A DNA stretch of 46,755 nt from Microcaldota archaeon (GCA_021810375.1 JAJZJB010000003.1:1-46755), one strand, 5' to 3'. Counted from the first letter of the stretch, positions 17,331-34,346 are shown. The notes: generated from the letters alone by a model not told the origin. Numbers and translations: made by a program.

Positions 17331-18065
17331 TCACTCCTTCAGTTCGAGGTATCCTTGTGACACCATCTTATCAAGTATCTGCTCTACCCTTGGCTGCACT
17401 ATATTGTATGCCTTGGCAAACTCGCCTACATCTATTGTGCTGTTGTGCACTTCTATCCAGTCCATTACCATATTCATAAGCGCTTGATCGGAGTACTTCT
17501 GCAATGCTGCGATGTCTTCCTTCAGCTTCTTGTTCTCCTCGTTAAGCTGGCTTGTCTGAACTGTGAGGTTTCTGTTTGCCGCGCTCAATTCGAGGTTTAG
17601 CCTTTTTAGCTCCCTATACTCGGAAAGCTGCGAATCATACTTGTTGAACAAGCTACTGTAGTTGTCCGAGAGCCCTTTAAGCAGGTCATCCACTACCGAA
17701 TCTACATACTGGTAGAACCTAGTCTCATCTATCTTGAATATGCCAGAAAGTATGGAGAGCATGGATATCATATCTTTTATGACGTATGCCCTCCTCATGC
17801 GGTCGCTCGTGTCTGGTGGGATCGAGTATATGGCTCCTATTGAGTCCTTAGAGATCTCTATCATGTAGAAAAGGTATGGCTTCTTGTTTATGTTCCTGCT
17901 CTCTATTCGCGCAGCAACCAGCTTCCCATCCTCTAACTTAATAGAATAGAAAGGTATCTGCGAGATCCGCGCAAGCGCCTGCTCCAGTGTGCCGTTCAGG
18001 GCTCCACCGAAAGTGACCTCCTCGACTTTCGGGATGGTCACTGTCTCTGCGGTCATGCTCATCAA
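17331..18065 (-). CDS. Coiled-coil cytoplasmic protein of the T4SS-like cluster
   Basis: Long heptad region YSSLFNKYDSQLSEYRELKRLNLELSAANRNLTVQTSQLNEENKKLKEDIAALQ; C-terminal wHTH-like helices. Confidence 0.75.
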   Translation of the reverse strand: MMSMTAETVTIPKVEEVTFGGALNGTLEQALARISQIPFYSIKLEDGKLVAARIESRNINKKPYLFYMIEISKDSIGAIYSIPPDTSDRMRRAYVIKDMISMLSILSGIFKIDETRFYQYVDSVVDDLLKGLSDNYSSLFNKYDSQLSEYRELKRLNLELSAANRNLTVQTSQLNEENKKLKEDIAALQKYSDQALMNMVMDWIEVHNSTIDVGEFAKAYNIVQPRVEQILDKMVSQGYLELKE

Positions 18066-18138: not shown

Positions 18139-18561
18139 TTATGTGCCGAGGAACCGCCGAGACTTGGTTGTTCCCCGAGCCGCCTTTCCCTTCGCTGTCC
18201 CTCCGTTGCCAAGGTCGAGGGCAGGCATGTAACTAAGCAGGGAGAGCAGATAAAAGAAGGCCAGTATGGCCAGGGTGAGCGCGAAGGTCTTCAAGCTGGG
18301 CCCTGTAAGCAATCCTAATATTACAAATATGATCCCAAGGCCAACGTAGAGCATGCGCCTTCCGGTGAATTTCTTCCTTGCCTTGTTGTACTGCGGCCAG
18401 TCCTCCTTGCACACCACCAGGATATTGTCCCTTGCGTTCCTGGTTATGTTTCTCTTGAACCAGCGCATTGACTCGAGCACCCAGTCGCTCTTCACCCGTA
18501 TTCCCTGCTTCTCCTTGCCGCATATGATGCACACAAAACCTTTGGCTGCCATGATAATCAC
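18139..18561 (-). CDS. Zinc-ribbon plus TM-hairpin membrane protein
   Basis: FVCIICGKEK..VVCKEDW putative metal site; two hydrophobic segments LYVGLGIIFVILGLLTG / FALTLAILAFFYLLSLLSY. Confidence 0.7.
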   Translation of the reverse strand: MIIMAAKGFVCIICGKEKQGIRVKSDWVLESMRWFKRNITRNARDNILVVCKEDWPQYNKARKKFTGRRMLYVGLGIIFVILGLLTGPSLKTFALTLAILAFFYLLSLLSYMPALDLGNGGTAKGKAARGTTKSRRFLGT

Positions 18562-18857
18562 TAATCTACGTTAAGTTCTACCACTTTCCCGTATGTCTCG
18601 CTTATGTTCTGCTCGTCAAGCATGTTGAATATGTCTGTTATCGTAACGTCATCGACGCCTATTCTCCTGAGTATGTTTGACGCATCTGCCGGTCTGACTC
18701 CATACCTCCGCAGCATGCTTACAAAGGCCAGCGCGTTTATGTGCCTGTGCGTCTTGTTGATCTGGTTGAGCATGTCGTCTATGTTCTTGGTGCTGACCTT
18801 GAATGCTGCGAGGACCTGCTCGAGCTTTATCCTGTTGATCACGAATGTGTTTGCCAT
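18561..18857 (-). CDS. 98-aa helical protein, standalone paralog of the C-terminal domain of the adjacent VirB4-like ATPase
   Basis: Alignable by eye with the ATPase C-terminus (see findings). Confidence 0.75.
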   Translation of the reverse strand: MANTFVINRIKLEQVLAAFKVSTKNIDDMLNQINKTHRHINALAFVSMLRRYGVRPADASNILRRIGVDDVTITDIFNMLDEQNISETYGKVVELNVD

Positions 18858-18862
18858 TCAAT

Positions 18863-20365
18863 TCACACGTATGAAAATACCCTGGTTATTGTGGTGTCCA
18901 CCATTTTCATGCTCCTCAGGAAGACCACGACAACTTCCTTGCTCACTCCGCGCTTCATCATGAGCCGCACCAGGTCCCTGACATCCGCTATGCGCTCCTT
19001 CTTGTCAAGGTCATTGAAGATGGATATTATTATATCAGAGCTTATGCCCGACTCTATCATCTTGGAATTAAGGTCTATCCTCTCGAAGTAATACTCTTTC
19101 TGTATGCTTGTGTCTGCAAGTTCTGACTGAGTAAGTATCTCCGAGATATTTATGGTGTAAACGTCTAGCGGCTCTTCGCCGACTATCCTCTCAAGTAGGA
19201 AAACGTCAGGGAACTGTACGGCTGCATGGAATGACATGTCGAAGGCTGCCTGGCCTACCCCGAACTTTCCTATCGCAGATCTCATGAAATTGGAGAAGTT
19301 CAGCGATCCCTGCAGGTAATTCATGAACTTCTCGAACCTGATCCTAAGCATAACCGTGGTGCCTACATTAGAGAATATGGCCTCATTCACGTCGGTAGGG
19401 TTCTGTGATGCTACTATGAGCCCGAATTGGTACTTTCTCCCCTCCCTAACTATCGTTATTGCGTCGCTCCTGTCATCGCTTGCCACTTTCCATGCCTCGT
19501 CTAGCACGACTATTGCCTTCAGGCCCTTGCTGCTGCTCCATCCCTCGGCGCGCATCTTCTCCTTCAACGTCTGAAGTATGAACATGGCCGCCAGGGCCCT
19601 GAATTTCTCGTCAGGCAGGCCTGAGAGGTCCATGTCGACCAGGCCCGAGGAAGCCAGTTTGCCTATATCTATGGTGGATTTCCTTGCGAAATAGTCCTCT
19701 CCTTCCCTAGTGAACTGGCGCAGCCTGTAAAGTGCGTTCTCCAACTCTGCAGGGTACTCGTATGAGCCATCCTGGAGCTTCTCCTCCAGCAATGTTGTGA
19801 CATCCTTCAGCGTAGGCGCATCCCTGCCCGCTTCAGGTACCGAGGAGAGCACGAACCCCGCGTTGACATACGCCTGCTCCATCGCTTCCCCGGTGAGACG
19901 CCTCTGTTCTGGATAATCGCCTATGTCAGTTAGTATATCAAAAGAGTTCATGATCTGCTTTACCCTGTCTATGGGCTTCATTCCTGAGAGATCCATGATG
20001 TTTATGTAGTCGCCTTTTGATAGCGAGATTATTACCCCGCCGCTCTGCTTTACCCAGGCCTTGTACTCTCCTGCCCAGTCAACTATTATGGCATTGGTGT
20101 TCCAGATGTAGCTCGCCCTAATAAGGAAGGTCTTGACAAAAAAGCTCTTTCCTGCGCCTGTGATTCCCACTACGGCAAGATGCGGGTTTGTAAGCGTGGC
20201 AAAGCTCCACGTGAAAGGCACGCCGAATAGTTTCGTGGTGCCTATGAATATCGAGTCCGTAGGGTCATTGAGCAAGTACTCAAAAGGCGGCTCTGGGGGT
20301 CTTGTCAGGAAGACCCTCTTGGCCACCTCGTTGCTCATTATGTTCTGGATCCTTATCAATGACAT
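18863..20365 (-). CDS. VirB4/HerA/CedB-like P-loop ATPase of the T4SS-like cluster
   Basis: Walker A VVGITGAGKSFFVKTFL, NAIIVDWAGEYKAWV, Walker B KAIVVLDEAWKV, SQNPTDVNEAIFSNVGTTVMLRI. Confidence 0.88.
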   Translation of the reverse strand: MSLIRIQNIMSNEVAKRVFLTRPPEPPFEYLLNDPTDSIFIGTTKLFGVPFTWSFATLTNPHLAVVGITGAGKSFFVKTFLIRASYIWNTNAIIVDWAGEYKAWVKQSGGVIISLSKGDYINIMDLSGMKPIDRVKQIMNSFDILTDIGDYPEQRRLTGEAMEQAYVNAGFVLSSVPEAGRDAPTLKDVTTLLEEKLQDGSYEYPAELENALYRLRQFTREGEDYFARKSTIDIGKLASSGLVDMDLSGLPDEKFRALAAMFILQTLKEKMRAEGWSSSKGLKAIVVLDEAWKVASDDRSDAITIVREGRKYQFGLIVASQNPTDVNEAIFSNVGTTVMLRIRFEKFMNYLQGSLNFSNFMRSAIGKFGVGQAAFDMSFHAAVQFPDVFLLERIVGEEPLDVYTINISEILTQSELADTSIQKEYYFERIDLNSKMIESGISSDIIISIFNDLDKKERIADVRDLVRLMMKRGVSKEVVVVFLRSMKMVDTTITRVFSYV

Positions 20366-20382
20366 AATATTCTACCGATAAA

Positions 20383-21213
20383 CTATTTCTGCGTCTGGAA
20401 CATTTTCAGTAATTCAGCTTCCCCCGGTATCCTGTAATCAAAGTCATGGAGGTAATGCACTTCCCTGCCAGTCACCCTGAATATGCTTAAGTCCAGCGCA
20501 TTGAAAAGGGTCTGGAGCTGGTTCAGCTGCAGGCTGACTGCGTCAAGTGCCTCTTTCTCGCTCACGCCTACTGCTGTAGACTCTATATACATTACGACAT
20601 TCAAGGGTCGTTCCCCTGCAGATACCCTGTCCATCCTCTGCTGTATTATCTGCATGCGCCTCTGGAGCGCCTCAAGGCTCATCGTGTTCGGATTGGTGGC
20701 ATTCATCTCCCTAGAAATCTGGAATTCGAGATACCCCCTCTGGCCGTCAAGCTCGTCCCTGTATTTCTGCACATCCTCAGGTATAGTTATAAGATTGAAC
20801 TTGAACGGGAAGTCTATGTTCATTGCTATCCTTTCCCACCTATCCACAGCACCCGATAGGTCCGTCTCATTCTGTTCCGGTTGCTGGGAAGTGAATACGT
20901 ATCCGTACACATTCCCTGTGAGATAACCTGTCGCATAATAGACCCCGTTCGTTACTTTCACTACTGCATCGTTGCCCTCCGAGAGCATTATGCCGTTTGC
21001 AGGTATGATCCTCAGGTGGAACGCCTTCATAATGGCAGGAAAGACAAGGAAGTCAACGTAATTTATGGCTAGTATTATGCCCATGCCGAATATAGTCAGG
21101 ATCACCATTACGTAACCAAGAATCCCATAATCAGTGCTTGTAAGTATAAGTAGCAGGGCTACAAGGGCCGTTGCTGCAAGGTATACAATTGATTCCTCAT
21201 CTACCATTCTCAC
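20383..21213 (-). CDS. N-terminal TM hairpin (VirB3-like) plus soluble domain; paralog of the 21210-22064 product
   Basis: Two N-terminal TMs followed by VYYATGYLTGNVYGY and AVGVSEKEALDAVSLQLNQL. Confidence 0.75.
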   Translation of the reverse strand: MRMVDEESIVYLAATALVALLLILTSTDYGILGYVMVILTIFGMGIILAINYVDFLVFPAIMKAFHLRIIPANGIMLSEGNDAVVKVTNGVYYATGYLTGNVYGYVFTSQQPEQNETDLSGAVDRWERIAMNIDFPFKFNLITIPEDVQKYRDELDGQRGYLEFQISREMNATNPNTMSLEALQRRMQIIQQRMDRVSAGERPLNVVMYIESTAVGVSEKEALDAVSLQLNQLQTLFNALDLSIFRVTGREVHYLHDFDYRIPGEAELLKMFQTQK

Positions 21214-22064
21214 ACCTGTTTCAATCCGCTCCTCACGCTTATCTGCGAGCTCAGGTTTGCTATCGGTATCATCTGTTCCGGTTCAATGAGTTGCAGTATC
21301 TCTTTTCCCGTCGCAAGCGAAGCGCTGATGCCATACGTGGAACTGATTCCTGCCGCTAGTTCGTCCCCTTTGGATATTGCAAGGTTTACTGCTTCCTCCT
21401 CTGAGCTTCCGGTGGCACTCACCATCGCATAAGACATCATCGAGTGCGACTTCGCCCTGCTGACGCTCTCCAGCATGTTCCTCCACATCGTTACTTTCCC
21501 TCTCAGGTGCTCTACCTCTGGAGCCACCTCTTTCTTGGCCGTGCCGCCCCCTTCCTTATTCATGATCTGGTTGTACTTATCCTGCGCCTCGTTTAGCTTT
21601 GCGCGTATCTTTTCTATATATTCGTCTTTGTTGAGCACGTAAAGCTGCGTGCTTATCCTGAACGGTTCCTTTATTATCGAGAGCATCTTGCCAAAGCTTG
21701 TGGCAAAGTCTATCTTTTCCTGGTCCTCCATTTCCGTGCCCGACCTGTATATCGGTATCTTCACAAACACAGTTGCATAGACCAGGTCTCCAACCCGCTT
21801 CATTATCGCAGTGCCTGAAGGCGACATTATATATGGATCTCCGCTATCCAGCACCAATTTCTTTCCCTTCATCTTCCTGAGGGGATCAAAAAGGTACGTG
21901 TAGTAGCGGCTTGCCATCGCTAGTATGTCGCACAGGATTGCTAGAAGCCCCATTATGAACTTCAGTATCCCGAGCCCGGGCCCAGCCGCCACCCCCACTA
22001 ATATGAAGGCAAGTGAGGCAGCCACCAGAGAAATGAACAATATCCACCTGAATTCGAAGGCCAA
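21210..22064 (-). CDS. N-terminal TM hairpin (VirB3-like) plus soluble domain; paralog of the 20383-21213 product
   Basis: Two N-terminal TMs followed by LVYATVFVKIPIYRSG and ATGSSEEEAVNLAISKGDEL; 4-nt overlap with next gene. Confidence 0.75.
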   Translation of the reverse strand: MAFEFRWILFISLVAASLAFILVGVAAGPGLGILKFIMGLLAILCDILAMASRYYTYLFDPLRKMKGKKLVLDSGDPYIMSPSGTAIMKRVGDLVYATVFVKIPIYRSGTEMEDQEKIDFATSFGKMLSIIKEPFRISTQLYVLNKDEYIEKIRAKLNEAQDKYNQIMNKEGGGTAKKEVAPEVEHLRGKVTMWRNMLESVSRAKSHSMMSYAMVSATGSSEEEAVNLAISKGDELAAGISSTYGISASLATGKEILQLIEPEQMIPIANLSSQISVRSGLKQV

Positions 22065-22204: not shown

Positions 22205-23176
22205 ATGACGATAACGGCTTACAGGACCATGCCAGGCAGTGCCTTGAAGACGCTTGCAAGGTCTGCGGCAATTTCAGCTGCAATAGCGCTTGCCCCTGCA
22301 ACGCTTGCATATGCTGCACCAACCTCCCATAACGACGCCGGCTCAAACGTGCCTTCGGCTCCTGCGTGCAAGCCTTCTGCATCAAAAGGCGTGAGCACCG
22401 CCCTATACACGCTTCTGCAGCAGGACAGCAAGACCCTAATACCGAGCAACTCAACTGCAAGCGGCTACGCAATCATAGAAGGCAACCTGCTCTTAGCCAC
22501 TTCATACTACGACTCGCAATCCGGATCACGGTTTGCTCAGGCCAACATCCCTGGGCCTGCAAGCCAGAGAGGATTCATAAACTTCACTGCACATGCAGCC
22601 GCAGGCACTGTGAAAGTGAGCGAATACGGCAATATTGCTACAAACGGCATCTCATGCGACATAAAAGCAGAGTACCCGCAGGCCATTGCAGTGCCAAAAG
22701 GTCGTCCGGCCCTGCAAGCATGCAGCACAAGCGCATCCATAGGCCTTGAACGCAGAATAAGGTATGCATACGCGAAGAGCGCAAGAGATTTTGCGAGCGA
22801 TTATCCAAGCGAGACAAAAGTCGACGGCGTTGTGTCAGGCAACTCTGTAGCTTTCTACAGGCCGCTTCCCGGATTCCTGTCCGTTTTCCCTCCGAACAAG
22901 GCGCGCGCCTTCATGGCCGGGAGCCGGAACCAGCGTGCAAACATGAAGATATATGCGTATTGGAGCTCAGACGAGAAGCTTTCTGCAGTAATGGAGCGCG
23001 GTACGATAGTCATTGGCGGTAAGGCATGCAGCGTCAATTACTCGTACAGGTATCCTGCCAAGTCCAACATACCTGCTGCTGCAGGCACTCTGGGTGCTGT
23101 TGCATTAGTATTCGCATTGTACGTGACGCGCAGGCTTAGGGATCGTGCTACTGCAAGGAAGATCTTCAATACCTAA
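22205..23176 (+). CDS. Secreted or surface protein with N-terminal signal and C-terminal TM anchor; only plus-strand gene inside the cluster
   Basis: AAISAAIALAPATLAYAAP signal-like segment; C-terminal AAAGTLGAVALVFALYVTRRLRDR. Confidence 0.75.
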   Translation: MTITAYRTMPGSALKTLARSAAISAAIALAPATLAYAAPTSHNDAGSNVPSAPACKPSASKGVSTALYTLLQQDSKTLIPSNSTASGYAIIEGNLLLATSYYDSQSGSRFAQANIPGPASQRGFINFTAHAAAGTVKVSEYGNIATNGISCDIKAEYPQAIAVPKGRPALQACSTSASIGLERRIRYAYAKSARDFASDYPSETKVDGVVSGNSVAFYRPLPGFLSVFPPNKARAFMAGSRNQRANMKIYAYWSSDEKLSAVMERGTIVIGGKACSVNYSYRYPAKSNIPAAAGTLGAVALVFALYVTRRLRDRATARKIFNT

Positions 23177-23248: not shown

Positions 23249-24391
23249 TCAGAGTCCCCTGAGCCTAGATGAAGTCCTTGCCATGCCGCCCAGCAGTTCT
23301 GCTATCTGGGTTATGAAAGCATAAGTCATGGCGCTGATCAGGGCAGGATAGAAGAGAACGGATAGCCAGAAGGCGCCCATTGCGCTGGAAGCAGTGCTAA
23401 TCTCCTCGACAAGAGGAGAAGACGGAGACGCTGAGTTCTGCACTGCATCCTTGCAGCTCGCCGAGCCTGGGGTACACCCGCCATAGCGTCCCAGGGCTCC
23501 TGAAATTGCACTTAATTGCGAGGCCGTGCCTCCCTGCGTTCCTGCTATCTGGGCAAATGCAATGCCAAATAATATCGGCATGAAGAAATAGAATCCTATG
23601 GCTATCGCCATTAGCATTCCGCCGAGATGCCTTGTCGGTATCAACGCCCTGAAGATTACCCCTGGTATAAGGAATACGGGTATTGCGGCATACATCATGA
23701 ATATTATTAGGTAAAATTCCAGGTTAAGGGCCATCAGTCCCGGCACTATGAGCTCTATAAGAGCAGATGCCGGCCAGAAGAATAAGTACACTACCGCGTA
23801 CTTGAAGATCGGCGGGAAGAAGCTGCTCTGGAACTGGCACTTGAATGCTGTTTCAGCAATGCACGTTGAGTACACCTGCGAAGCATAGTAATAATCTACA
23901 GATCCTATCGCATAGAGCTGCGCTACCAGGCCATCTGTCTGGCCTATGGTATAATTTATGTTATTTAAGGCATAGCTGTACGGGTTATAACTGCCCACGA
24001 AGAAGCCCGGCAGCAGCCCGAACATAAGCGCCGCTACGAATGTAAACAGTATTACGATTGTTGCAGTTGCTATGGCTTCATAGAGCTCTCCCATGCCGAA
24101 AATGCGAACACGGTCATTCCTTATGCCTATGCCAATCATTATGATCAGCGCCGCTATCGAGAAAGAGAAGAGCGTGGCCGCTATTGCTATGGGCTCCCAA
24201 TTGCTCCATACCTTTACTGCAGCTGCATTTATGGTGTTGCAATACCACGGCGCAACTACGCTTACTATTGCATTGGCCCCAAGCTTATTTACATTTCCAC
24301 AATATTGCGATATGGGATTTCCTTGCGCTCCTAGTGGCATTGCCACTAAGATGAGAGCAAGTATCATTGCAAGCGCGATCTTATTCATCAT
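23249..24391 (-). CDS. Polytopic membrane protein, VirB6/CedA-like paralog 1
   Basis: Signal peptide, multiple TMs, motifs GELYEAIATATIVILF and FRALIPTRHLGGMLMAIAIGFYFFMPILF. Confidence 0.8.
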   Translation of the reverse strand: MMNKIALAMILALILVAMPLGAQGNPISQYCGNVNKLGANAIVSVVAPWYCNTINAAAVKVWSNWEPIAIAATLFSFSIAALIIMIGIGIRNDRVRIFGMGELYEAIATATIVILFTFVAALMFGLLPGFFVGSYNPYSYALNNINYTIGQTDGLVAQLYAIGSVDYYYASQVYSTCIAETAFKCQFQSSFFPPIFKYAVVYLFFWPASALIELIVPGLMALNLEFYLIIFMMYAAIPVFLIPGVIFRALIPTRHLGGMLMAIAIGFYFFMPILFGIAFAQIAGTQGGTASQLSAISGALGRYGGCTPGSASCKDAVQNSASPSSPLVEEISTASSAMGAFWLSVLFYPALISAMTYAFITQIAELLGGMARTSSRLRGL

Positions 24392-25737
24392 ACCAGCCTC
24401 GTAAGCAGGGAAAGGAAGTCCATGCGCTCCCCTATTGCTGTTGAGAAATCTACTATAAATACGTCAACCACGGTAAGGCTAAGCAACGGAAGGAAAGTAA
24501 GCCCTATGGCCACGAATGCCCCGTATATCGCATATGCCCTGAAGAGCGGTACAATGACCGGGAGCAATGACTGTGCATAAGCCGCATTGCTAAAGTGCCC
24601 CAGGAATAAACTGAAGGTGTTGCTAACCCATGTGGCAATCATATTGACAATGGTCCCTACTACGCTTCCGGCAGGGCAGGTAGCCCCAAAGGCCGCTCCT
24701 ATACCGAATGAGAACTGGCAGAACTGCACCTCGGCCGTGTCCAACGCATGCGTCAAGAATCCAAGTGTTACTGCAGTCATGAGCGGGTATATAATCCCTA
24801 TGCCAAGCGCAAATGCGATTAGCGCACCCCCAAATGTCCTGGTCACTCCAAACGACCTTGCAATAAGCCCTACGGCCATGAGTATGGCGTATATTATCCC
24901 TGAAGCCGAGATGAGCATGAGCTGCACCTGGCTTAATATGAAGAATAGGTAAAGAGAATTCAGTAACGGTACAAAGTAGTGGAATACGGGCTGTATCGGC
25001 ATGAAATTTAAGGGTATCACAAGGCCTATGTTGTAAGAGGCGAAAGAACCCGTATTTATCGGACCTGGGCTGTCTGTATAATCTGGCTCTCCAGATTCTA
25101 CCTGCCCGTCAGACGCCCCTATCCCGCCAACCCCGCCGCCACCCACCACGCTAGGCAAGGTCGCACTGGTTGCCAGCTGTGAAGGGAAGTACAATGTGGC
25201 TGTAGGCGTAAGTGAAACTAGGGAAGCGACATAGAATGTGGATGTTGCGAAATTCTGCACATCCTGGTTGAATTGGTAGGTGTCACAGACCGAGAGGAAA
25301 TAGAGGTTATCGTAGCTTACGGCCGCCTGCCCTGGTGGCGGAGGCTGCGCACTTAGCGTTGTTATGGCATTTCCGCATTCGCTGCTGACAAGGCCTATGC
25401 CGTTCATGGCGCCATATACTGGAAGCGTGGCAACCAGTGCGCCGAAGGCTATGAAGATGAAGATCAGCACCAGAGACGCAAGCTCGTCGTATACCTTTGT
25501 GCGTATCCACGTTCTCATCTGCGTGTTGCCGAATGCTGGGCTTAGCATGTACATCATTGCAAGTATTGCTACGACCAGTATGACACCTATCGCTGCTATG
25601 CCTGCTCCTATGACATACGGTGATGTTATGTCATAGCATATGCCAGTGCAAGATCCTGCCGCTGCAGCCTGCTGCGGCGCATACGCTAATACCGCGAGGG
25701 CAACTATCATCACTATCACGAAGCTCCCTTTTCTCAT
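24388..25737 (-). CDS. Polytopic membrane protein, VirB6/CedA-like paralog 2 (start moved to internal Met MRKGSFVIV)
   Basis: Signal peptide after internal Met; motifs KVYDELASLVLIFIF and ARSFGVTRTFGGALIAFALGIGIIYPL. Confidence 0.78.
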   Translation of the reverse strand: MRKGSFVIVMIVALAVLAYAPQQAAAAGSCTGICYDITSPYVIGAGIAAIGVILVVAILAMMYMLSPAFGNTQMRTWIRTKVYDELASLVLIFIFIAFGALVATLPVYGAMNGIGLVSSECGNAITTLSAQPPPPGQAAVSYDNLYFLSVCDTYQFNQDVQNFATSTFYVASLVSLTPTATLYFPSQLATSATLPSVVGGGGVGGIGASDGQVESGEPDYTDSPGPINTGSFASYNIGLVIPLNFMPIQPVFHYFVPLLNSLYLFFILSQVQLMLISASGIIYAILMAVGLIARSFGVTRTFGGALIAFALGIGIIYPLMTAVTLGFLTHALDTAEVQFCQFSFGIGAAFGATCPAGSVVGTIVNMIATWVSNTFSLFLGHFSNAAYAQSLLPVIVPLFRAYAIYGAFVAIGLTFLPLLSLTVVDVFIVDFSTAIGERMDFLSLLTRLV

Positions 25738-25771
25738 ATGCTTCCTCTCTTTACGGTTACACGTGTAATCA

Positions 25772-27055
25772 TTATAGCACCTTGCCAAGGATCCTGTTGC
25801 TTTGCAGCGAAGGCGCTCCAAGAATATCTCCAAGGAATTCCAGCAGGTCGTACGCTATTATGAATGAAATTATCAGTCCGATCATCTGTAAGACGGCATA
25901 GGCAACCACATTGGTGAAATCTATTACATTCTCGAACATCGTCACTCCGAATGAAGTCTCGCCTATTATCGAAAAGACCGCATCGAGATAGCCTTTTGCA
26001 TCTGAGTAAATGCTGCTCCCAAGATTTCCAATGGCCTGCCCGCTGTTGCAAAGGGACTGGGTTGAAGGGAATGTCCCGGTTCCACCGCACAATGTAATGC
26101 TATTCACGTTTACCTGTGAGAATGCATAGAGGAGCGCAGGCAGGAAGATGTAAAATGAGATGAATAGGGCCAGCATTGACCCTCCGGCAGCACGCGTCCA
26201 CGGGAAGCACCTCAGCACTATGCCCACATAGAAGAATATCGGGAAGAGGAAATATATGACAAACAAGAGTATCACAACCAGCGCACCCATGCTTATTATG
26301 GCGAAAGAAATTGCCTCTTCAGACCATAGGGTTGTCAGCAGTGTCTGGACTCCTGTGAATGGCTTGATTGCGAATCCGAATGCGTTTGGATCAGCGTTGA
26401 CTATGGTGCTAGTAGTGCTTTCCACAAAGAAGAGATAGAGCACAACGCTGATGTAATTATACAAGTTATTATTTATTATGGAATTTTCGTAATTGTTGCA
26501 TACGTTTATGAATAATCCTGGCGAAGCGTTGGATCCAGCTGCGCCAGATGGCGGCGGTGGCAGCACTGAGCTGCTTCCTGCACCCGCAGCAGCAAGATTT
26601 CCGAAGAAGATGGAAGCATTGTTGAATATATAGAATCCACCTACCAGGACAACTATTATTATGATTATGTTCGCGAGTACCTCTACATACTCCCTTCTTA
26701 CATAATCAACCAGCTTGTTAATGCCGAAGGCCCTGCCTATGGCATATAATATGCCATCCAATGCCAGAATAAGAAGGATTATCAGCAGGCCTATGCCTAG
26801 CAAGTAATTGAAGTTTGATCCGTTTGTAAGCCATTGGCTCACGAGCGGCGTGCCGCCGGCGTACGCAGCGCCTTCTTGAAAGAGCGTATTGCAGTTGAAA
26901 ACAGCCTCGGCTATGCCTTTCCCCGGCGCCTCTGCGGGTATTCTCGAGGGGCCTGCGCTTGTGCTTCCAAGGAGCATGGAAACCGGGGATACTGCTCCGG
27001 CTATAGCTACTGCCATCATCAGGAAGGCAACAGCCATATAGCTCTTTTTGTTCAT
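25772..27055 (-). CDS. Polytopic membrane protein, VirB6/CedA-like paralog 3
   Basis: Motifs REYVEVLANIIIIIV and LRCFPWTRAAGGSMLALFISFYIFLPALL. Confidence 0.8.
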   Translation of the reverse strand: MNKKSYMAVAFLMMAVAIAGAVSPVSMLLGSTSAGPSRIPAEAPGKGIAEAVFNCNTLFQEGAAYAGGTPLVSQWLTNGSNFNYLLGIGLLIILLILALDGILYAIGRAFGINKLVDYVRREYVEVLANIIIIIVVLVGGFYIFNNASIFFGNLAAAGAGSSSVLPPPPSGAAGSNASPGLFINVCNNYENSIINNNLYNYISVVLYLFFVESTTSTIVNADPNAFGFAIKPFTGVQTLLTTLWSEEAISFAIISMGALVVILLFVIYFLFPIFFYVGIVLRCFPWTRAAGGSMLALFISFYIFLPALLYAFSQVNVNSITLCGGTGTFPSTQSLCNSGQAIGNLGSSIYSDAKGYLDAVFSIIGETSFGVTMFENVIDFTNVVAYAVLQMIGLIISFIIAYDLLEFLGDILGAPSLQSNRILGKVL

Positions 27056-27064
27056 CTAACCACT

Positions 27065-28717
27065 TTATACGAACCTCCCGAGGCCTATAATGTTTGTGTC
27101 CCCGCCCAACAGTCCAGAGAGTCCTACCACTGCTGATAATGCTATAAGCACGTTTAGTATCGGCACTATGAACCCTGTCACAGCCATAACACCGTAAACG
27201 TGCCAGATGGCTTCGTCTGCAGCGACCATGTTCTGCGGTGTGAAGCAGTTCCAGTTCTGCTGCTGCCCTCCTGTTATTATCGCCGGCAGTATTGGAAGGT
27301 GGGTTGGCGCAGCTCCTTCACCTCCGACTATGCTCCCTATGAAACCTGACAATCCACCTGTCACCACAGACGTACCCGCCCCTAATCCTGGTATTAGGTA
27401 TTCGGATGAATAGAGCATTTCCATGGCGAGCAGGTTGGAGCTGTCCGGATAGCAGCCGTAATAATTGAGCACCTCTGACACCCTGGGGAAATTGAAGAAA
27501 TCTATATTGTACTGTATTGCACTTGCCATGCTTGAGGCTGAGCCTGCGGCCGGCCCCGGACTCGAGAGAGGCAACTCGTTTATTGCCATGTCTGGCAGTG
27601 AGTTGGCTCCTATGAGCTCTATGCAGCTTCCAGGCCCTGTTGTCGTGGCCGGGGTCGGTGTCAGCGTGCTCACTATGCCGCTAGGATTATACTGGCAGAG
27701 CTGGTTGCCATTTGAGAGAGAGGTGTACTCAAACAGGTACATTATAGGGTATATCACCAAAGCAACCATCACCAAGGCAATGACAAGGCCGCCTGCCCTG
27801 CGGGTGTATGAGAACGTCCTGAGCAGGATGCCCGCAGCAAGAAGATATGGCCACCAATAAAGCATTACAAGGATTCCGGTCATTTGCAGGAAGAAAAGGT
27901 AGAATATCAGACTGGCAGTTATTTCTACTGGTGGTAATGACACTCTCTGGTAGTAGTATCCAACGAATGGTGTGTAAGAGTACATTATCTTGAACGCGTC
28001 GTTGCCGTTGAGCGGGTTGGCGCACTGCAGCGCACTAGCCAGCCCTGACGGAGGAGTTGGATACCCGACACAAAATACCGTTAGCGACTTCAGACTCCTC
28101 AGCCATCCGGAGGTGCCTTCAAAATAATACAGCGAATTAAGGTTGCCCAGAGTCTGGTTGGTCATGTTGGCTGAGATTACGTAGGCAGCGGCAAGGCCGT
28201 AATCTAGATTCGTATTTATGTTGTTGCTCTTAGCCGCTTTCTCCACTATGTCGGAGCACACAATGTTTGTCGGGCTTGGCTGCCCGCCTGGATACGTATA
28301 TGTGCTGCTTGTGAACTGGAACTGCGAGTCAGCCAGCGGTGCCGCTGTGCATACATTGCTTATCGCAGTTGGCGATACCACCAGGCTCTTTGTCGAGGTC
28401 AGAGTAGCCCCAAAGACTCCAAGGACCCACACTATCACTATGACTAAGATCGCCGTGCCTACTGCCTGCCAGAATTCAGTTATGGCCATTGTCTTGGCCT
28501 TCTGGTTGTTCAGCACCACGCCTATTAAATAGTACACGCTGGTCAGGGCAAACGAGAGAAGAATGGCAGCGAATACGGCCGGCAGCCAGCTTGTGAATGC
28601 CTGGTAACTGTTTGTAATGCTGGGCACAGGGCTTCCGCTTGCAGAGAGCAGGTTAGAGGCTCCAGCTATGAAGATGAATGCGCCGAGCAATACGAAAGTG
28701 TATTTTATGTGCATCAA
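27065..28717 (-). CDS. Polytopic membrane protein, VirB6/CedA-like paralog 4
   Basis: Motifs TEFWQAVGTAILVIV and LRTFSYTRRAGGLVIALVMVALVIYPIMY. Confidence 0.8.
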   Translation of the reverse strand: MMHIKYTFVLLGAFIFIAGASNLLSASGSPVPSITNSYQAFTSWLPAVFAAILLSFALTSVYYLIGVVLNNQKAKTMAITEFWQAVGTAILVIVIVWVLGVFGATLTSTKSLVVSPTAISNVCTAAPLADSQFQFTSSTYTYPGGQPSPTNIVCSDIVEKAAKSNNINTNLDYGLAAAYVISANMTNQTLGNLNSLYYFEGTSGWLRSLKSLTVFCVGYPTPPSGLASALQCANPLNGNDAFKIMYSYTPFVGYYYQRVSLPPVEITASLIFYLFFLQMTGILVMLYWWPYLLAAGILLRTFSYTRRAGGLVIALVMVALVIYPIMYLFEYTSLSNGNQLCQYNPSGIVSTLTPTPATTTGPGSCIELIGANSLPDMAINELPLSSPGPAAGSASSMASAIQYNIDFFNFPRVSEVLNYYGCYPDSSNLLAMEMLYSSEYLIPGLGAGTSVVTGGLSGFIGSIVGGEGAAPTHLPILPAIITGGQQQNWNCFTPQNMVAADEAIWHVYGVMAVTGFIVPILNVLIALSAVVGLSGLLGGDTNIIGLGRFV

Positions 28718-29919
28718 ACATTACCCCAGAAAGGCCCTGCGCCTAATATGTTGGGGGCAGCATTCAGCGCCTTTGTCAGTCCTTGTGCAAACCCTATAGT
28801 TATCGCTATGTCTAAAGCTACAAGGACAATGCTCTCGAACATATATTCGGCTATCTCATATCCGAACCCAGCTATGATGTCCGGGACATCGAACAGTATC
28901 TTGAGCGAACCAGTTATAATTGAGCCCAGTCCGCCCTGCCCTGAGAATACTCCACTGTAAAACGCCACCGGCACCTGTGTCACCCCGCCGCCAGGGCCGA
29001 CTATGTTGGCTGCGCTGTTTGCAGTAAAGAGAGAACTGACCGGCAGGCTCGCGAATTGGGTGAATTGCACATAGTCTGCGTATGGGTTGCAGTTCTGCGA
29101 AGTGAGTTGCAGCGGGGTTCCAGTCCCGATATAATTGCTGCAATACATCCAGTTAACAACGTAATTGTTCAGGGTTATCGTGATCGGCAGGATGAAATAG
29201 AAGGCTATCGCTATAGCCAAGAAGGAATTTGCTGCCTCCCGTAACCTGGGACCCCCGAAGGGCCATGATCTTATCACTATGGTCAATGGGAGCAGAACGG
29301 TCAGCGCCAGGGCCTGGGTTATTGGGAGTATCAGGTAGAATATGAACAGCACGGCATATGAAGCCACAAGCATTGCTGTATAAGTGCCTGTTATGACTCC
29401 AGTGTAGCCGTAATATACCCCTGTTATGTTATTGCTAAGCTGCACACCTACGTATCCGCCCAGTATCGTAATCTCCTCGCTCTCCACTATCATCTCGAGC
29501 ACGTGAGCTGCAGCCAGGAAGATTGCACTCTCTGAGTATATCTGCCCGAAGATCTGGTTCGATCTCTGGAAGAGGAGGTTGCTGAGGTAGAACTGTGCAA
29601 ATTGCATCGGATCCTGGTAAAGCCCGGTGGTGAGTTCCTGCGTAATCGACTGGCCCGCTTGGCATGATGTATACGCAAGCGCAAGCACTGCTATTATTAT
29701 GAATACTGAAAGTACTGCCTGGAACATCTCTGTCTTGACCGCTCCGCGTAGTTTCTCTCTAGTGGATGCAGGCAGCATGCTTGCAATAGCATATACTCCT
29801 GCGCCGATTACAAGTGCAAGCAGTATCACAATCCCGTTTATGTTCAGCCACGCTCCCTGGTTTATCGCGGCAAAGGTGCAGGCTTGCTGATAAGCAGTTA
29901 TCAGTAATACTATATCCAT
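28714..29919 (-). CDS. Polytopic membrane protein, VirB6/CedA-like paralog 5
   Basis: Motifs TEMFQAVLSVFIIIA and IRSWPFGGPRLREAANSFLAIAIAFYFILPITI. Confidence 0.78.
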   Translation of the reverse strand: MDIVLLITAYQQACTFAAINQGAWLNINGIVILLALVIGAGVYAIASMLPASTREKLRGAVKTEMFQAVLSVFIIIAVLALAYTSCQAGQSITQELTTGLYQDPMQFAQFYLSNLLFQRSNQIFGQIYSESAIFLAAAHVLEMIVESEEITILGGYVGVQLSNNITGVYYGYTGVITGTYTAMLVASYAVLFIFYLILPITQALALTVLLPLTIVIRSWPFGGPRLREAANSFLAIAIAFYFILPITITLNNYVVNWMYCSNYIGTGTPLQLTSQNCNPYADYVQFTQFASLPVSSLFTANSAANIVGPGGGVTQVPVAFYSGVFSGQGGLGSIITGSLKILFDVPDIIAGFGYEIAEYMFESIVLVALDIAITIGFAQGLTKALNAAPNILGAGPFWGNV

Positions 29920-29923
29920 AAAA

Positions 29924-31177
29924 TCATGCCATCTTGAGCTTGCCTCCTAGATGCAGCCTTATCGTGCCTCCGAGCATCTTGGCTATCGAATCCGTCAGCG
30001 GGTATATTATCACAAGGTCAAGTACAAAGAGTATGAGCTGCACTGTGGCATACCATCCTGTGCTTATCAGGCCGTTCATGAAGACATATATGCCGCCGAA
30101 GGAATCCCAGGCATATGCTATTATCTGGGTGAGCGATCCAGTTGATAGGACGGCGCCCAGAGCCCCCATGAATGACGTGCAAATGACAACGCCAAGGTTG
30201 CATGCCTGCGTAGGGCACGAGAGCGTTCCCGTGCCACATGGTGGCGGTATCATGGCAGCCGCCCAGGCTGCTACCGGCTGGTCCAAGAGTACAAGCGTGG
30301 CAGGGAATATTATCGAAGCTGCAACGCCTATTGCTATGAGCGTGCCGCCCATGCCGCGTATGAACGGGAAGGCGCGCATCACAAGCCCCATCGGTATAAA
30401 GACCGAGAGCCCAAGTCCAACAATCAACGGCAGCAGGGTTATCAGGACATCAAGCATAGATGTTACCGGGAAGAGAACAAACTGCACCATATCGAATACT
30501 ATCGACTCGAAGTGCTGGATCACGATGTTTCCGGATTCGAGCATGAAATTCTGGTACGGATTGGCACTGAACCCAGAATTTAGTGAGAAACCTACCCCTA
30601 TGAAAGGTATTGGTATTGGTATGGGCAGGTAAAGCAGCACCGTGGTTCCCTGCGCAAGCCCTATTGCTATTGCAGCCTGGCCTATGAAAGTCCATCCCGG
30701 CAGCATATTCTGTTCTGCGGTGCAGAGGTAACTCTCTGAGCTTGTTATCAGCGAGCCCACGTTGGCAAACAGGGTGCCGCTAGTGGGTGTTGCAGTTGGT
30801 GCAATAGCGATTGCAAGCCCGCTGACTACGGCAAGCACGCCATAAATCGCTATCACCACGAATATGGATTTGGTGAGCTCGTAATACTCTCCCTGCACCC
30901 ATGCGAACATGCCCCGCAGGTTGAATGCTCGCGCTACTATGTATCCTATCGCCACTATGTCGAATGCCAGGTCAAGGGCTATGAGCGAAAGGGCTATTGC
31001 TGTTGCAATGTCTGGCCCTGGTATCGTGCCTGACGCGCTGCCGCCTGGGATAACGGTGGGGCAGACATTCTCATATGTTATGCCACCGCCCCCTGCCGCT
31101 GCGAGTGGCGATGCGCCGACGGCTAGCAGGAGAAGCATGAAAGGAATCAGGAACCTCCGTTTGCCAGCCTGGAGCAT
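29924..31177 (-). CDS. Polytopic membrane protein, VirB6/CedA-like paralog 6
   Basis: Motifs GEYYELTKSIFVVIA and MRAFPFIRGMGGTLIAIGVAASIIFPATL. Confidence 0.8.
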   Translation of the reverse strand: MLQAGKRRFLIPFMLLLLAVGASPLAAAGGGGITYENVCPTVIPGGSASGTIPGPDIATAIALSLIALDLAFDIVAIGYIVARAFNLRGMFAWVQGEYYELTKSIFVVIAIYGVLAVVSGLAIAIAPTATPTSGTLFANVGSLITSSESYLCTAEQNMLPGWTFIGQAAIAIGLAQGTTVLLYLPIPIPIPFIGVGFSLNSGFSANPYQNFMLESGNIVIQHFESIVFDMVQFVLFPVTSMLDVLITLLPLIVGLGLSVFIPMGLVMRAFPFIRGMGGTLIAIGVAASIIFPATLVLLDQPVAAWAAAMIPPPCGTGTLSCPTQACNLGVVICTSFMGALGAVLSTGSLTQIIAYAWDSFGGIYVFMNGLISTGWYATVQLILFVLDLVIIYPLTDSIAKMLGGTIRLHLGGKLKMA

Positions 31178-31218: not shown

Positions 31219-31950
31219 TCAGTGAGTAAGCAGGGCAAATCTCTTCATGTACGACTCAGACTGCAATATGACAAAGTATGGAAGTATTAGCACGGAAGTG
31301 ATGATCAGTGTGACGTATCCTGCCAGGGCTGTCCCTGCAACCGCTATTGATAATGTATCTACAACAGAGATCGCTGCGGTGAGCAGCACCAGCCAGAGCA
31401 GATAGTACTGCGGTGCGTGAACCACGAGCCTCACGCTGTCACGTATGGCCCTGCCGATCCTTTTATTATCCACTACGATTGCGCTGGGCACATAGAAGAT
31501 CAGGGCGAAGCCGAAGAATCCGAAGAGAGCCGTTGCCAGGGCCTGCGCATTTATCATGTATCCAAGTATGTTAATCGCTATAAGTATAAGCGAATAGACA
31601 AGAAGAACTGCGAAAACTTTTCCTATGTGCCTCTCAATTCCCTGCATCACGCGCTTGCCTACGTTCACATGCGTTTTCCGTGCCTTGACTATCAGGCTTA
31701 TGGCCACTAAGGCAAAGCTCAGGAAGAGAAGCGAGAAGACCATGGCAATCACCACCACTACGAAGCTGAGAAAGTCCGGGGATATGAAGACGCTGGCGCT
31801 CCTCAGGAAAGTGCCTCCCGCAGTCACATACGTGGGCAGAGGCGCGAAGAGCGGTATGGCAAACGCTATTATGAACGGTATGGAGAAGAGAAGCACCAGC
31901 TTCCAGTTCTCCGCATACGTTTCCCACGAATCACTCAATACGTTTCCCAT
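31219..31950 (-). CDS. Six-TM-like integral membrane protein of unknown function (start set at MGNVLSD)
   Basis: Repeated hydrophobic segments; ORF track start at 32022 overlaps the upstream gene by 4 nt, so the longer start is also possible. Confidence 0.7.
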   Translation of the reverse strand: MGNVLSDSWETYAENWKLVLLFSIPFIIAFAIPLFAPLPTYVTAGGTFLRSASVFISPDFLSFVVVVIAMVFSLLFLSFALVAISLIVKARKTHVNVGKRVMQGIERHIGKVFAVLLVYSLILIAINILGYMINAQALATALFGFFGFALIFYVPSAIVVDNKRIGRAIRDSVRLVVHAPQYYLLWLVLLTAAISVVDTLSIAVAGTALAGYVTLIITSVLILPYFVILQSESYMKRFALLTH

Positions 31951-32018
31951 TCCCGCAACACCTTGACAGGCTATAACATCAATATCAAGAATTAAAAAGA
32001 TATTGCACAGGCACCGGT

Positions 32019-33881
32019 TCATCCGCTGCTCTGTACCGGCCGTGTCTCATAGACATACTGACCGCTGTAAAAGATGGCGTGCAGGTAAGTGACCCTTGCG
32101 CTCTCATTGCTACCGTTTATCACGGCCCTAAGCGAATAGCTGCCGCTGCCTGTGAGGTTCAGCCTGTTCAGATTGAGCTTGCACGTGTAATCGGTGCAGC
32201 TTGGCCCAAGGCCAATGAGGCTATCATTGTCTATGCCGTAGAGCGTGTAAACGCTACCGTTTGACGAATAGCCTTGAATATAGAAATACACTGAGCTGTT
32301 CGAAAGGTCGCTATACGAGATGTCCGCCTTGTATACTGTGGAATTGCCTATGAAGGAGATGCTCTGGTTCTCAACGCTCAGGTTGAAATCTCTAGCATAA
32401 GATGCGTTTGAGATATATGCAAACGCGATGGACACGGCAACCACAACGGCCAGCAAGGCGAAGAATAGGTACCTATTCCTGCGCAGGAATCTGGTGGCCA
32501 TGCCGCTTGTCCTGCTTCTTCGAGTCTCAAATGCAATGACGTACACAAGGAAGAAGAAGTAAAACGTGTAGTAAGCCGGAAGCGAATGGAAAACGAAGAA
32601 TAGGGGTATCAGCCCAAACAGCGGTATCAATTCCTTCCTGTTCCAGTAGAGCAGCAGAAGGACCATTGCTACCGAAGACAATGCAACCAAGATACCTGAC
32701 AAGGAGAGTGCCACATGGTAATTGTATATCAGCAACGAAGCGAATGGCGTGCTGTTGAATGGGACTATGTTCCCCAAGGGCTTGAATACGTCATAGAAGA
32801 ATGCATGTGGATTCAAGAATATGAAATAGCCATTTATCGCAGCGAAAACCGCAGCAGCCCCTGCTATGTCGCGCAGGCCCTTCTTCCATCCATAGTTGTT
32901 GAGCGAGTAGATCAGCAGCAATCCTGCCGGAAGCCAGATTTGCTCCTGTATGGATAACGCAAGGCCTATCGGTATGAAGGCATACCTGCTCTCAATCTTC
33001 ATGTATGCTATTAGCATGATGGCGAGCATGATGAATGTTGTTACCGAAGCCGCTGCCGCCAGCGTAAGTGCAAGGAAGGCAATCACCTCCAGCCGGCCTT
33101 GCAATATCTTCCGTCTGTCAAGCACAAAGACCATGGACAGCAGAAGCAGGTCCAGGAAGACGCCTGCCTGTGCGTTGAGGTCTATATGGCCTATATTATA
33201 CCACGTTGGCGGCGAGATGAAGTAGAAAGGCATGAAGGAAACGAAGTACAATGCAGGATAGTCCATGTACCCTACGAACTTGTTGTTAGTTGTGACTACC
33301 CCTCCCACAGTGGTGAAGTTCGCGTAGAGCTGGTTCCCTATAGATGTAGTGTACGGGTTCCCTCCCCTGAGCGTTGTCAACACAGCATTGAATCCAAGCA
33401 GTACCTCGTCTCCGAAACGATACGAAACAATTACATAGAAAAAGATAATCATGGTTATGGCGAAGCCCAGCGCCACAAGCGCGACAGCAGCCCCGCGTTT
33501 CCTCGCCACTAAGTATGCGTATGCGGCAAGCGCGAAGATAAAATATGGCAGGATCAGGAATATTATGTACAGGCCTGTCGACTTAAACATGTTTAATGCC
33601 CCTATCAATTCTGAGGCAAGTATAGTTCCCGAAACGATGAATATGCCAGCAAAAAGCACTACCAGCAGCGCGAACATGAGATGCAGTGCTGCTGCATGGG
33701 TTTCCGGTTTCTCCTTATGCATCACATAGAATGTAGCATATACTGCGAACAGTATCGTGTAAACCACGGCAGGTTCGTAGTAATAGAGGGTGAATGCGAG
33801 GTATTCTGCAATGTATACTGTGTAGAGGATCAGTGCTGCTATGAACTCTAAATAGAATATCCTGCTCCTCCCTCCAGCCAT
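32019..33881 (-). CDS. Polytopic membrane protein, GT-C glycosyltransferase-like, with a C-terminal ectodomain
   Basis: At least 12 hydrophobic segments; RGGNPYTTSI ... MDYPALYFVSFMPFYF resembles the GNPY...YPP loop of GT-C proteins. Confidence 0.55.
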   Translation of the reverse strand: MAGGRSRIFYLEFIAALILYTVYIAEYLAFTLYYYEPAVVYTILFAVYATFYVMHKEKPETHAAALHLMFALLVVLFAGIFIVSGTILASELIGALNMFKSTGLYIIFLILPYFIFALAAYAYLVARKRGAAVALVALGFAITMIIFFYVIVSYRFGDEVLLGFNAVLTTLRGGNPYTTSIGNQLYANFTTVGGVVTTNNKFVGYMDYPALYFVSFMPFYFISPPTWYNIGHIDLNAQAGVFLDLLLLSMVFVLDRRKILQGRLEVIAFLALTLAAAASVTTFIMLAIMLIAYMKIESRYAFIPIGLALSIQEQIWLPAGLLLIYSLNNYGWKKGLRDIAGAAAVFAAINGYFIFLNPHAFFYDVFKPLGNIVPFNSTPFASLLIYNYHVALSLSGILVALSSVAMVLLLLYWNRKELIPLFGLIPLFFVFHSLPAYYTFYFFFLVYVIAFETRRSRTSGMATRFLRRNRYLFFALLAVVVAVSIAFAYISNASYARDFNLSVENQSISFIGNSTVYKADISYSDLSNSSVYFYIQGYSSNGSVYTLYGIDNDSLIGLGPSCTDYTCKLNLNRLNLTGSGSYSLRAVINGSNESARVTYLHAIFYSGQYVYETRPVQSSG

Positions 33882-33968: not shown

Positions 33969-34346
33969 TCAGATTATTCCGCAGCTTGTCGGTATCAGGC
34001 TTGAACTTGCGCCTCCGACTCCCGCGATAACGCTGAGCAGCGGTCCTGCAAGTATCACAAGTATAAGGCCTACTACGCCTCCTACTATCATACCCATAGA
34101 CCATCCCTGAAGGTTTCCCCTGAGGTTTCCTGCCGCAGGAAGAAGATGCGCACCTGCATAGAGCGTACCTCCAGCTATGAAGAGCAGGAGCGCCAATATG
34201 CCTATAACCGTTTCTACTGATCCGACTATTCCGCAAAGACTTGCGGATATTGTCGAGCCGGCATTCTGCGCGGCTACAATTGAAGCGAAGAGCGACCCTA
34301 TCACAGCCATAAGATAGAGCAACCTCAAGTGTTTCGATATGTTCAT
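33969..34346 (-). CDS. VirB2/TrbC-like two-TM pilin candidate
   Basis: Signal peptide MNISKHLRLLYLMAVIGSLFASIVAAQ; TM1 VETVIGILALLLFIAGGTLYAGAHLL; short polar loop GNLRGNLQGW; TM2 MGMIVGGVVGLILVILAGPLL. Confidence 0.7.
   Translation of the reverse strand: MNISKHLRLLYLMAVIGSLFASIVAAQNAGSTISASLCGIVGSVETVIGILALLLFIAGGTLYAGAHLLPAAGNLRGNLQGWSMGMIVGGVVGLILVILAGPLLSVIAGVGGASSSLIPTSCGII

Follow-up and report, generated by a model that had tools for sequence, protein, structure and literature searches.

Six consecutive genes for polytopic membrane proteins lie head to tail on the minus strand of a Micrarchaeota contig, and they raise the question whether they are ancient copies of one gene that work together and, if so, what kind of channel six related proteins would form. 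The window, by which we mean the whole stretch of DNA analysed (46,755 nucleotides), is contig C33, chromosomal DNA from a Micrarchaeota MAG that is 64% complete. The six ORFs fill positions 23249-31177, encode proteins of 380-550 aa and are called P1 to P6 here, each name corresponding to a slot in the array:

29924-31177, minus strand: P1 (slot 1), a polytopic VirB6/CedA-like paralogue of 417 aa
28714-29919, minus strand: P2 (slot 2), the most divergent paralogue, 401 aa, with a pilin-like (VirB2-like) N-terminus
27065-28717, minus strand: P3 (slot 3), a paralogue of 550 aa with a large predicted extracellular insert
25772-27055, minus strand: P4 (slot 4), a paralogue of 427 aa
24388-25833, minus strand: P5 (slot 5), a paralogue whose listed start is TTG
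23249-24391, minus strand: P6 (slot 6), a paralogue of 380 aa; of all slots it gives the cleanest clade, and its AF2 model has a pLDDT of 85

From P1 to P6 the intergenic gaps are 4, -4, 9, -62 and -4 nt, and this tight or overlapping spacing makes a single coupled operon likely. Given the overlap of 62 nt, the true start of P5 is probably downstream of the listed TTG.

The earlier note on this DNA had read the six ORFs as divergent paralogues sharing two motifs, one member carrying a degenerate motif B. Profile-profile comparison with hhalign, using 53-65 orthologues per slot, bears out both the ORF positions and the homology. All 15 pairs scored between 81 and 208 with probabilities of 96-99.8%, against 36 or less for reversed-profile controls and 30 or less for the P profiles compared with the other membrane families of the locus, the pilin excepted. 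These two controls led us to reject a chance likeness of motifs among hydrophobic proteins. Both motifs emerged as the core of the family from an alignment of 62 members, motif A with the consensus WAKxExxQxxxS and motif B with the consensus LRxFPxTRxxGGxLIAxAxGxY. In this alignment R248 and R254 of motif B (P6 numbering) do not vary, and conservation reaches 90% or more at G244, G257 and P272. P2, the degenerate member, is indeed the most divergent, yet its HMM-HMM scores place it clearly within the family, and all six proteins keep the full core including motif B, none being reduced to a domain. Hydropathy and AF2 models indicate about five transmembrane helices plus a signal peptide, and basic residues occur in the motif A loop, the motif B loop and the C-terminus, consistent with five TM helices and a cytoplasmic location of both motifs. 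The AF2 models, made for P6 and P2 of the six, show long helices in matching order. At the N-terminus, residues 8-77 of P2 aligned with residues 32-99 of the neighbouring pilin (hhalign score 49, probability 91%); this similarity is weaker in P1 and P5 and absent in P3, P4 and P6.

The genes around the array provide its functional context:

33969-34346, minus strand: VirB2/TrbC-like pilin (PF04956, E 0.0022, below the curated cut-off)
31219-32022, minus strand: M267, a polytopic membrane protein whose gene is conserved on the upstream side of the array
21210-22064, minus strand: PRG284, two TM helices plus a soluble domain; paralogue of PRG276 and candidate split VirB3-VirB4/CedB N-terminal domain
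20383-21213, minus strand: PRG276, built as PRG284; the single PRG of other lineages scores best as PRG276
18863-20365, minus strand: B4, a VirB4/CedB/CedD-like AAA+ ATPase without the roughly 250 N-terminal residues of CedB
18561-18857, minus strand: S98, an apparent free-standing duplicate of the B4 C-terminal domain
18139-18561, minus strand: S140, a small protein with two TM helices, conserved beside B4
17331-18065, minus strand: CC244, a coiled-coil protein conserved beside B4; outside the order it accompanies single-P systems (L192, L216)
14762-17182, minus strand: an 806-aa protein with two TM helices, orthologue of the gene that follows CC244 in distant Micrarchaeota

The best NCBIfam matches of B4 are CedD (3.3e-18) and then CedB (2.6e-17, among the top three), both below the equivalog cut-offs, and its Pfam matches are PF01935/PF12846. 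The gene is present in 134 of the 149 genomes of the order and in 52/52 of the high-quality ones. CedB matches to B4 begin near CedB residue 250, and the part that B4 lacks is about as long as a PRG protein (276 aa); we infer that PRG may be the detached N-terminal domain of VirB4/CedB. One PRG gave no more than a trace match to the CedB N-terminal region (E 0.56). PRG284 and PRG276 matched each other with an hhalign score of 219. Because the main locus of several distant lineages has one PRG and no S98, with an S98-like region inside B4, the doubling of PRG and the detachment of S98 seem to have come later, in a single branch; where the S98 gene is absent, it is the tail of B4 that gives the higher S98 score. 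The six-gene arrays look older and more widespread than either change. The 806-aa protein, for which no Pfam family was found, has orthologues in distant Micrarchaeota (E 1e-36 to 6e-27), where they immediately follow CC244, and is probably a further subunit of the machine. A neighbouring gene, GT620 (32019-33881), was considered as a component and rejected, as it is not beside the array in most loci of the second family. The operon is interrupted between P6 and PRG284 by an oppositely oriented gene for a secreted-looking protein of 323 aa (22205-23176, plus strand), which was found beside no other array among the order-level loci examined.

A census across Micrarchaeota extended the comparison beyond the source genome. 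Six genes were called in 67 of the 70 complete arrays; the two five-gene calls (L059, L140) and the single eight-gene call (L039) were rejected as ORF-overlap or frameshift artefacts, draft frameshifts included. HMMs placed the genes in the order s1-s6 in 65 of the 67 six-gene arrays, and assigned 105/108 proteins from 18 arrays left out of training to their own slot. Within the order, P1 to P6 occur in identical order in the 20-kb loci of two families. Arrays are also found outside it, in Fermentimicrarchaeum, Iainarchaeum and Burarchaeum types and others, where there are often two per genome, often distant from B4; these second arrays also hold six genes. In many families the array does not adjoin B4, and in a single genome, G007, the B4 locus is present with no array next to it. 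G016 was rejected as an array-less genome, its contig ending beside the PRG genes. A P match was absent from three of the 70 phylum genomes searched. We rejected a peculiarity of this one locus or a fault of the assembly, because the 70 complete arrays come from independent genomes. A mobile element was likewise rejected, given the lack of P6 and PRG relatives in viral contigs and the near-universal single occurrence in the order; in the viral-contig scan the combined alignment A4 was too diverse to use. Very large inserts (1346, 1073 and 1143 aa) occur in slots 3 and 5 of some genomes; they are predicted to be extracellular and could serve for contact with the host. The genes concerned are:

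L193, 3775-7815: slot 3, 1346 aa
L193, 8972-12193: slot 5, 1073 aa
L209, from 5691: a further large-insert gene

Phylogenetic trees trace the slots themselves back in time. In a FastTree tree of 158 proteins, slots 6 and 3 each formed a single clade (26/26), slot 2 grouped in 25/26 and slot 5 in 24/25, and slots 1 and 4 were not clean, each being split into an in-order group and another group. An IQ-TREE tree of 81 proteins recovered slot 6 with a UFboot of 90 and the group of single-copy homologues with 87, and it joined slots 1 and 4 of the order (100); many deep nodes were poorly supported. The count may have stayed at six even as a copy of one slot took the place of another. A recent tandem amplification was rejected, since the slots are clades that span the phylum, with the exception of slots 1 and 4, which look mixed within the order. 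The ancient duplication from one ancestor that the earlier note had postulated is strongly upheld by the HMM-HMM scores, the phylum-wide slot clades and the presence of single-copy homologues in the same genomes. The note had also suggested a check of whether all six orthologous slots are conserved in relatives, and the 70 complete arrays with their fixed order show that they are.

Since the genes always number six, keep one order and occupy slots that cannot be exchanged for each other, the best reading of the putative channel architecture is a heteromeric, perhaps heterohexameric, ring, in line with the heteromeric channel that the earlier note had thought possible. The same set of genes could also encode six separate homo-oligomeric channels or pores, one per paralogue, each with its own substrate, pilus or partner and co-transcribed for dosage. 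That every slot is a distinct conserved lineage would fit such an arrangement, as would the great differences among the predicted extracellular inserts (1346 aa in slot 3 and 1073 aa in slot 5 of L193) and the frequent separation of arrays from B4. However, independent channels should be gained and lost singly, yet six genes are found in all 70 complete arrays, second arrays included, and there are only one or a few ATPases to serve six channels. We regard separate channels as unlikely and retain the heteromeric ring.

The nature of the machine is indicated by its likeness to the Ced and Ted systems. Ced of Sulfolobales (CedA/CedE, CedB/CedD and the pilin CedA1) and Ted of Thermoproteales (TedA, TedB and the pilin TedC) are DNA-exchange systems and are chromosomal, like the array. 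CedE is a CedA paralogue with five TM helices (PMC11868833). With E up to 0.01, the CedE model NF053657 gave 28 matches, spread over 25 of 117 Micrarchaeota genomes, the best (1.5e-6) in one genome and all of them far below the equivalog cut-off; among the control genomes it matched Sulfolobus acidocaldarius alone. All 11 matches that could be placed, by hand mapping in the fetched arrays, fell inside P genes, in slots 1, 2, 3, 4 and 6 and mostly at motif B. For P1 to P6 of the source genome no CedE match reached E 0.01. At the level of sequence, the P family thus appears related to CedE and is not CedE itself. The two kinds of system have in common a VirB4/HerA-type ATPase, a polytopic channel protein that matches CedE, two-helix pilins that are probably VirB2-like and a pilin-like channel N-terminus (PMC9905601, PMC11868833), the N-terminus of CedA being reported as similar to its pilin CedA1 (PMC9905601). 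Unlike Ced, which has one channel protein (CedA) or two (CedA and CedE), the array has six paralogues. Its ATPase also differs from those of Ced and Ted in being apart from the N-terminal part, which is seemingly a separate, duplicated membrane protein, and there are extra subunits (S98, S140, CC244 and the 806-aa protein) and a different phylum, Micrarchaeota.

The proposal that the paralogues are VirB6-like is sustained by the CedE matches, the adjoining VirB4/CedB-like ATPase, the candidate VirB2-like pilins and the pilin-like N-terminus of P2. A very improbable alternative is that the machine is not type IV secretion-like and is some other Micrarchaeota envelope complex, serving perhaps export or attachment, which has borrowed a HerA/VirB4-type ATPase. 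Pfam, NCBIfam and PDB sequence searches with P and PRG found no direct family for either, and a PDB fold search with the P6 and P2 models returned nothing significant, the R388 VirB6 chains appearing as noise (8rt9_F, E 0.63; 7o3v_G, E 1.2; TM about 0.2). The Pfam TrbL/VirB6 family (PF04610) had zero matches at E up to 10 in the source genome, and no relaxase was recognised in Pfam scans. These results speak for such a complex, but Ced and Ted likewise have no relaxases (PMC9905601), the P genes take the CedE matches, and the best matches of B4 are CedB and CedD. In addition, the pilin weakly matches TrbC/TrwL (for the L146 pilin, TrwL at E 9e-5, below the curated cut-off), and the minimal operon, pilin-P-PRG-B4, equals the Ced/Ted gene set. 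Side by side with the Ced/Ted-like reading we note that three different VirB2-like pilin genes stand in a row beside PRG-B4 at L146 (7824-9060) and L151 (7626-9017), the arrays being elsewhere; because the three are distinct, the pilin may be heteromeric too.

The minimal operon is itself a companion of the array. Closed or near-closed genomes contain seven P genes, six in the array and one lone copy elsewhere, and the lone copy belongs to a compact pilin-P-PRG-B4 operon seen at eight loci (L225-L230, L183, L192). CC244 accompanies the single-P systems of L192 and L216, and the ATPase of the L192 system matches CedB with E 2.2e-29. This single-gene version would be the homo-oligomeric counterpart of the array in the same genomes.

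Taken together, these data probably describe a chromosomal, Ced/Ted-like translocation machine of the VirB4/VirB6 type with a heteromeric channel made of six obligatory CedA/CedE-like paralogues. A single VirB6/CedA-like channel protein would have given rise to P1 to P6, which would build the machine together with VirB2-like pilins, PRG284 and PRG276 as VirB4-N-terminal-like membrane subunits, and the B4 ATPase. The six P proteins may form one ring, in the simplest case with a single copy of every paralogue, above a hexameric ATPase of the VirB4 type, and the conserved loops A and B would face the cytoplasm and dock on PRG/B4. By analogy with Ced, the cargo may be DNA that the cells exchange with their neighbours or hosts or take up from them, the least certain of these steps. 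The stronger form of the proposal, to which we give slightly less than an even chance, is a phylum-wide obligate heterohexameric VirB6/CedA-like pore, each paralogue present once at a fixed position, on a hexameric VirB4-type motor, MCM2-7-like, plus a homo-oligomeric single-gene version in the same cells. If true, this would show plainly how a homo-oligomeric secretion channel can become an asymmetric complex whose parts are fixed, the single-gene version being retained. It would give the poorly understood and often host-dependent Micrarchaeota a near-universal candidate machine for cell-to-cell transfer, and it makes ring number and subunit roles in VirB6/CedA channels testable.

Six genes need not mean a hexamer, because the VirB6 of R388 is a pentamer under a six-fold VirB4 motor (PMC9259494). 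The inner-membrane complex of R388/VirB (VirB3, VirB4, VirB6) offers an analogous set, namely pilin, VirB6-like protein, VirB3/VirB4-N-like protein and VirB4 ATPase, but its VirB6 is homopentameric and was not matched significantly by the P family in either fold or profile searches. With five-fold symmetry in R388 VirB6 and many conjugative pili (PMC9259494, PMC9905601), a mixed complex of other stoichiometry could be imagined, for instance a pentameric VirB6-like ring of some slots plus a peripheral or pilus-adaptor P protein. P2, the most divergent member and the one with the most pilin-like N-terminus, would be the candidate adaptor. We consider this quite doubtful, as the full core with motif B is present in all six, none has decayed, and the motor of R388 is six-fold (PMC9259494).

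The nearest precedent, by analogy, is the rvh/VirB type IV secretion system of Rickettsiales, which likewise has ancient, vertically inherited VirB6 paralogues in host-dependent organisms, with conservation mainly in a short cytoplasmic-loop region (PMC2653234, PMC7648143). Rickettsiales have four to five VirB6 copies with giant extensions within a full Gram-negative VirB system, and the count varies among genera, whereas the Micrarchaeota arrays have six throughout. No sequence match between the P family and Rickettsiales VirB6 was found in this analysis. A nanohaloarchaeal locus with giant proteins and VirB4 also belongs to a DPANN symbiont, and its VirB4-like ATPase is proposed to act on the host; it has giant Ig-repeat proteins fused to VirB4, and the parts of that report drawn on here do not describe a six-gene channel array (PMC10266531). 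In the literature searched we found no mention of a Micrarchaeota VirB4/VirB6 system. The machine type itself is already known; as far as our searches show, what is new is the fixed sixfold channel set, its conservation throughout the phylum and the presence of a single-gene version alongside it. The source genome also encodes, without P genes beside it, a second HerA/VirB4-like ATPase of 589 aa (L224, at G000:C19:4626-6395), which is 27% identical over the matched part.
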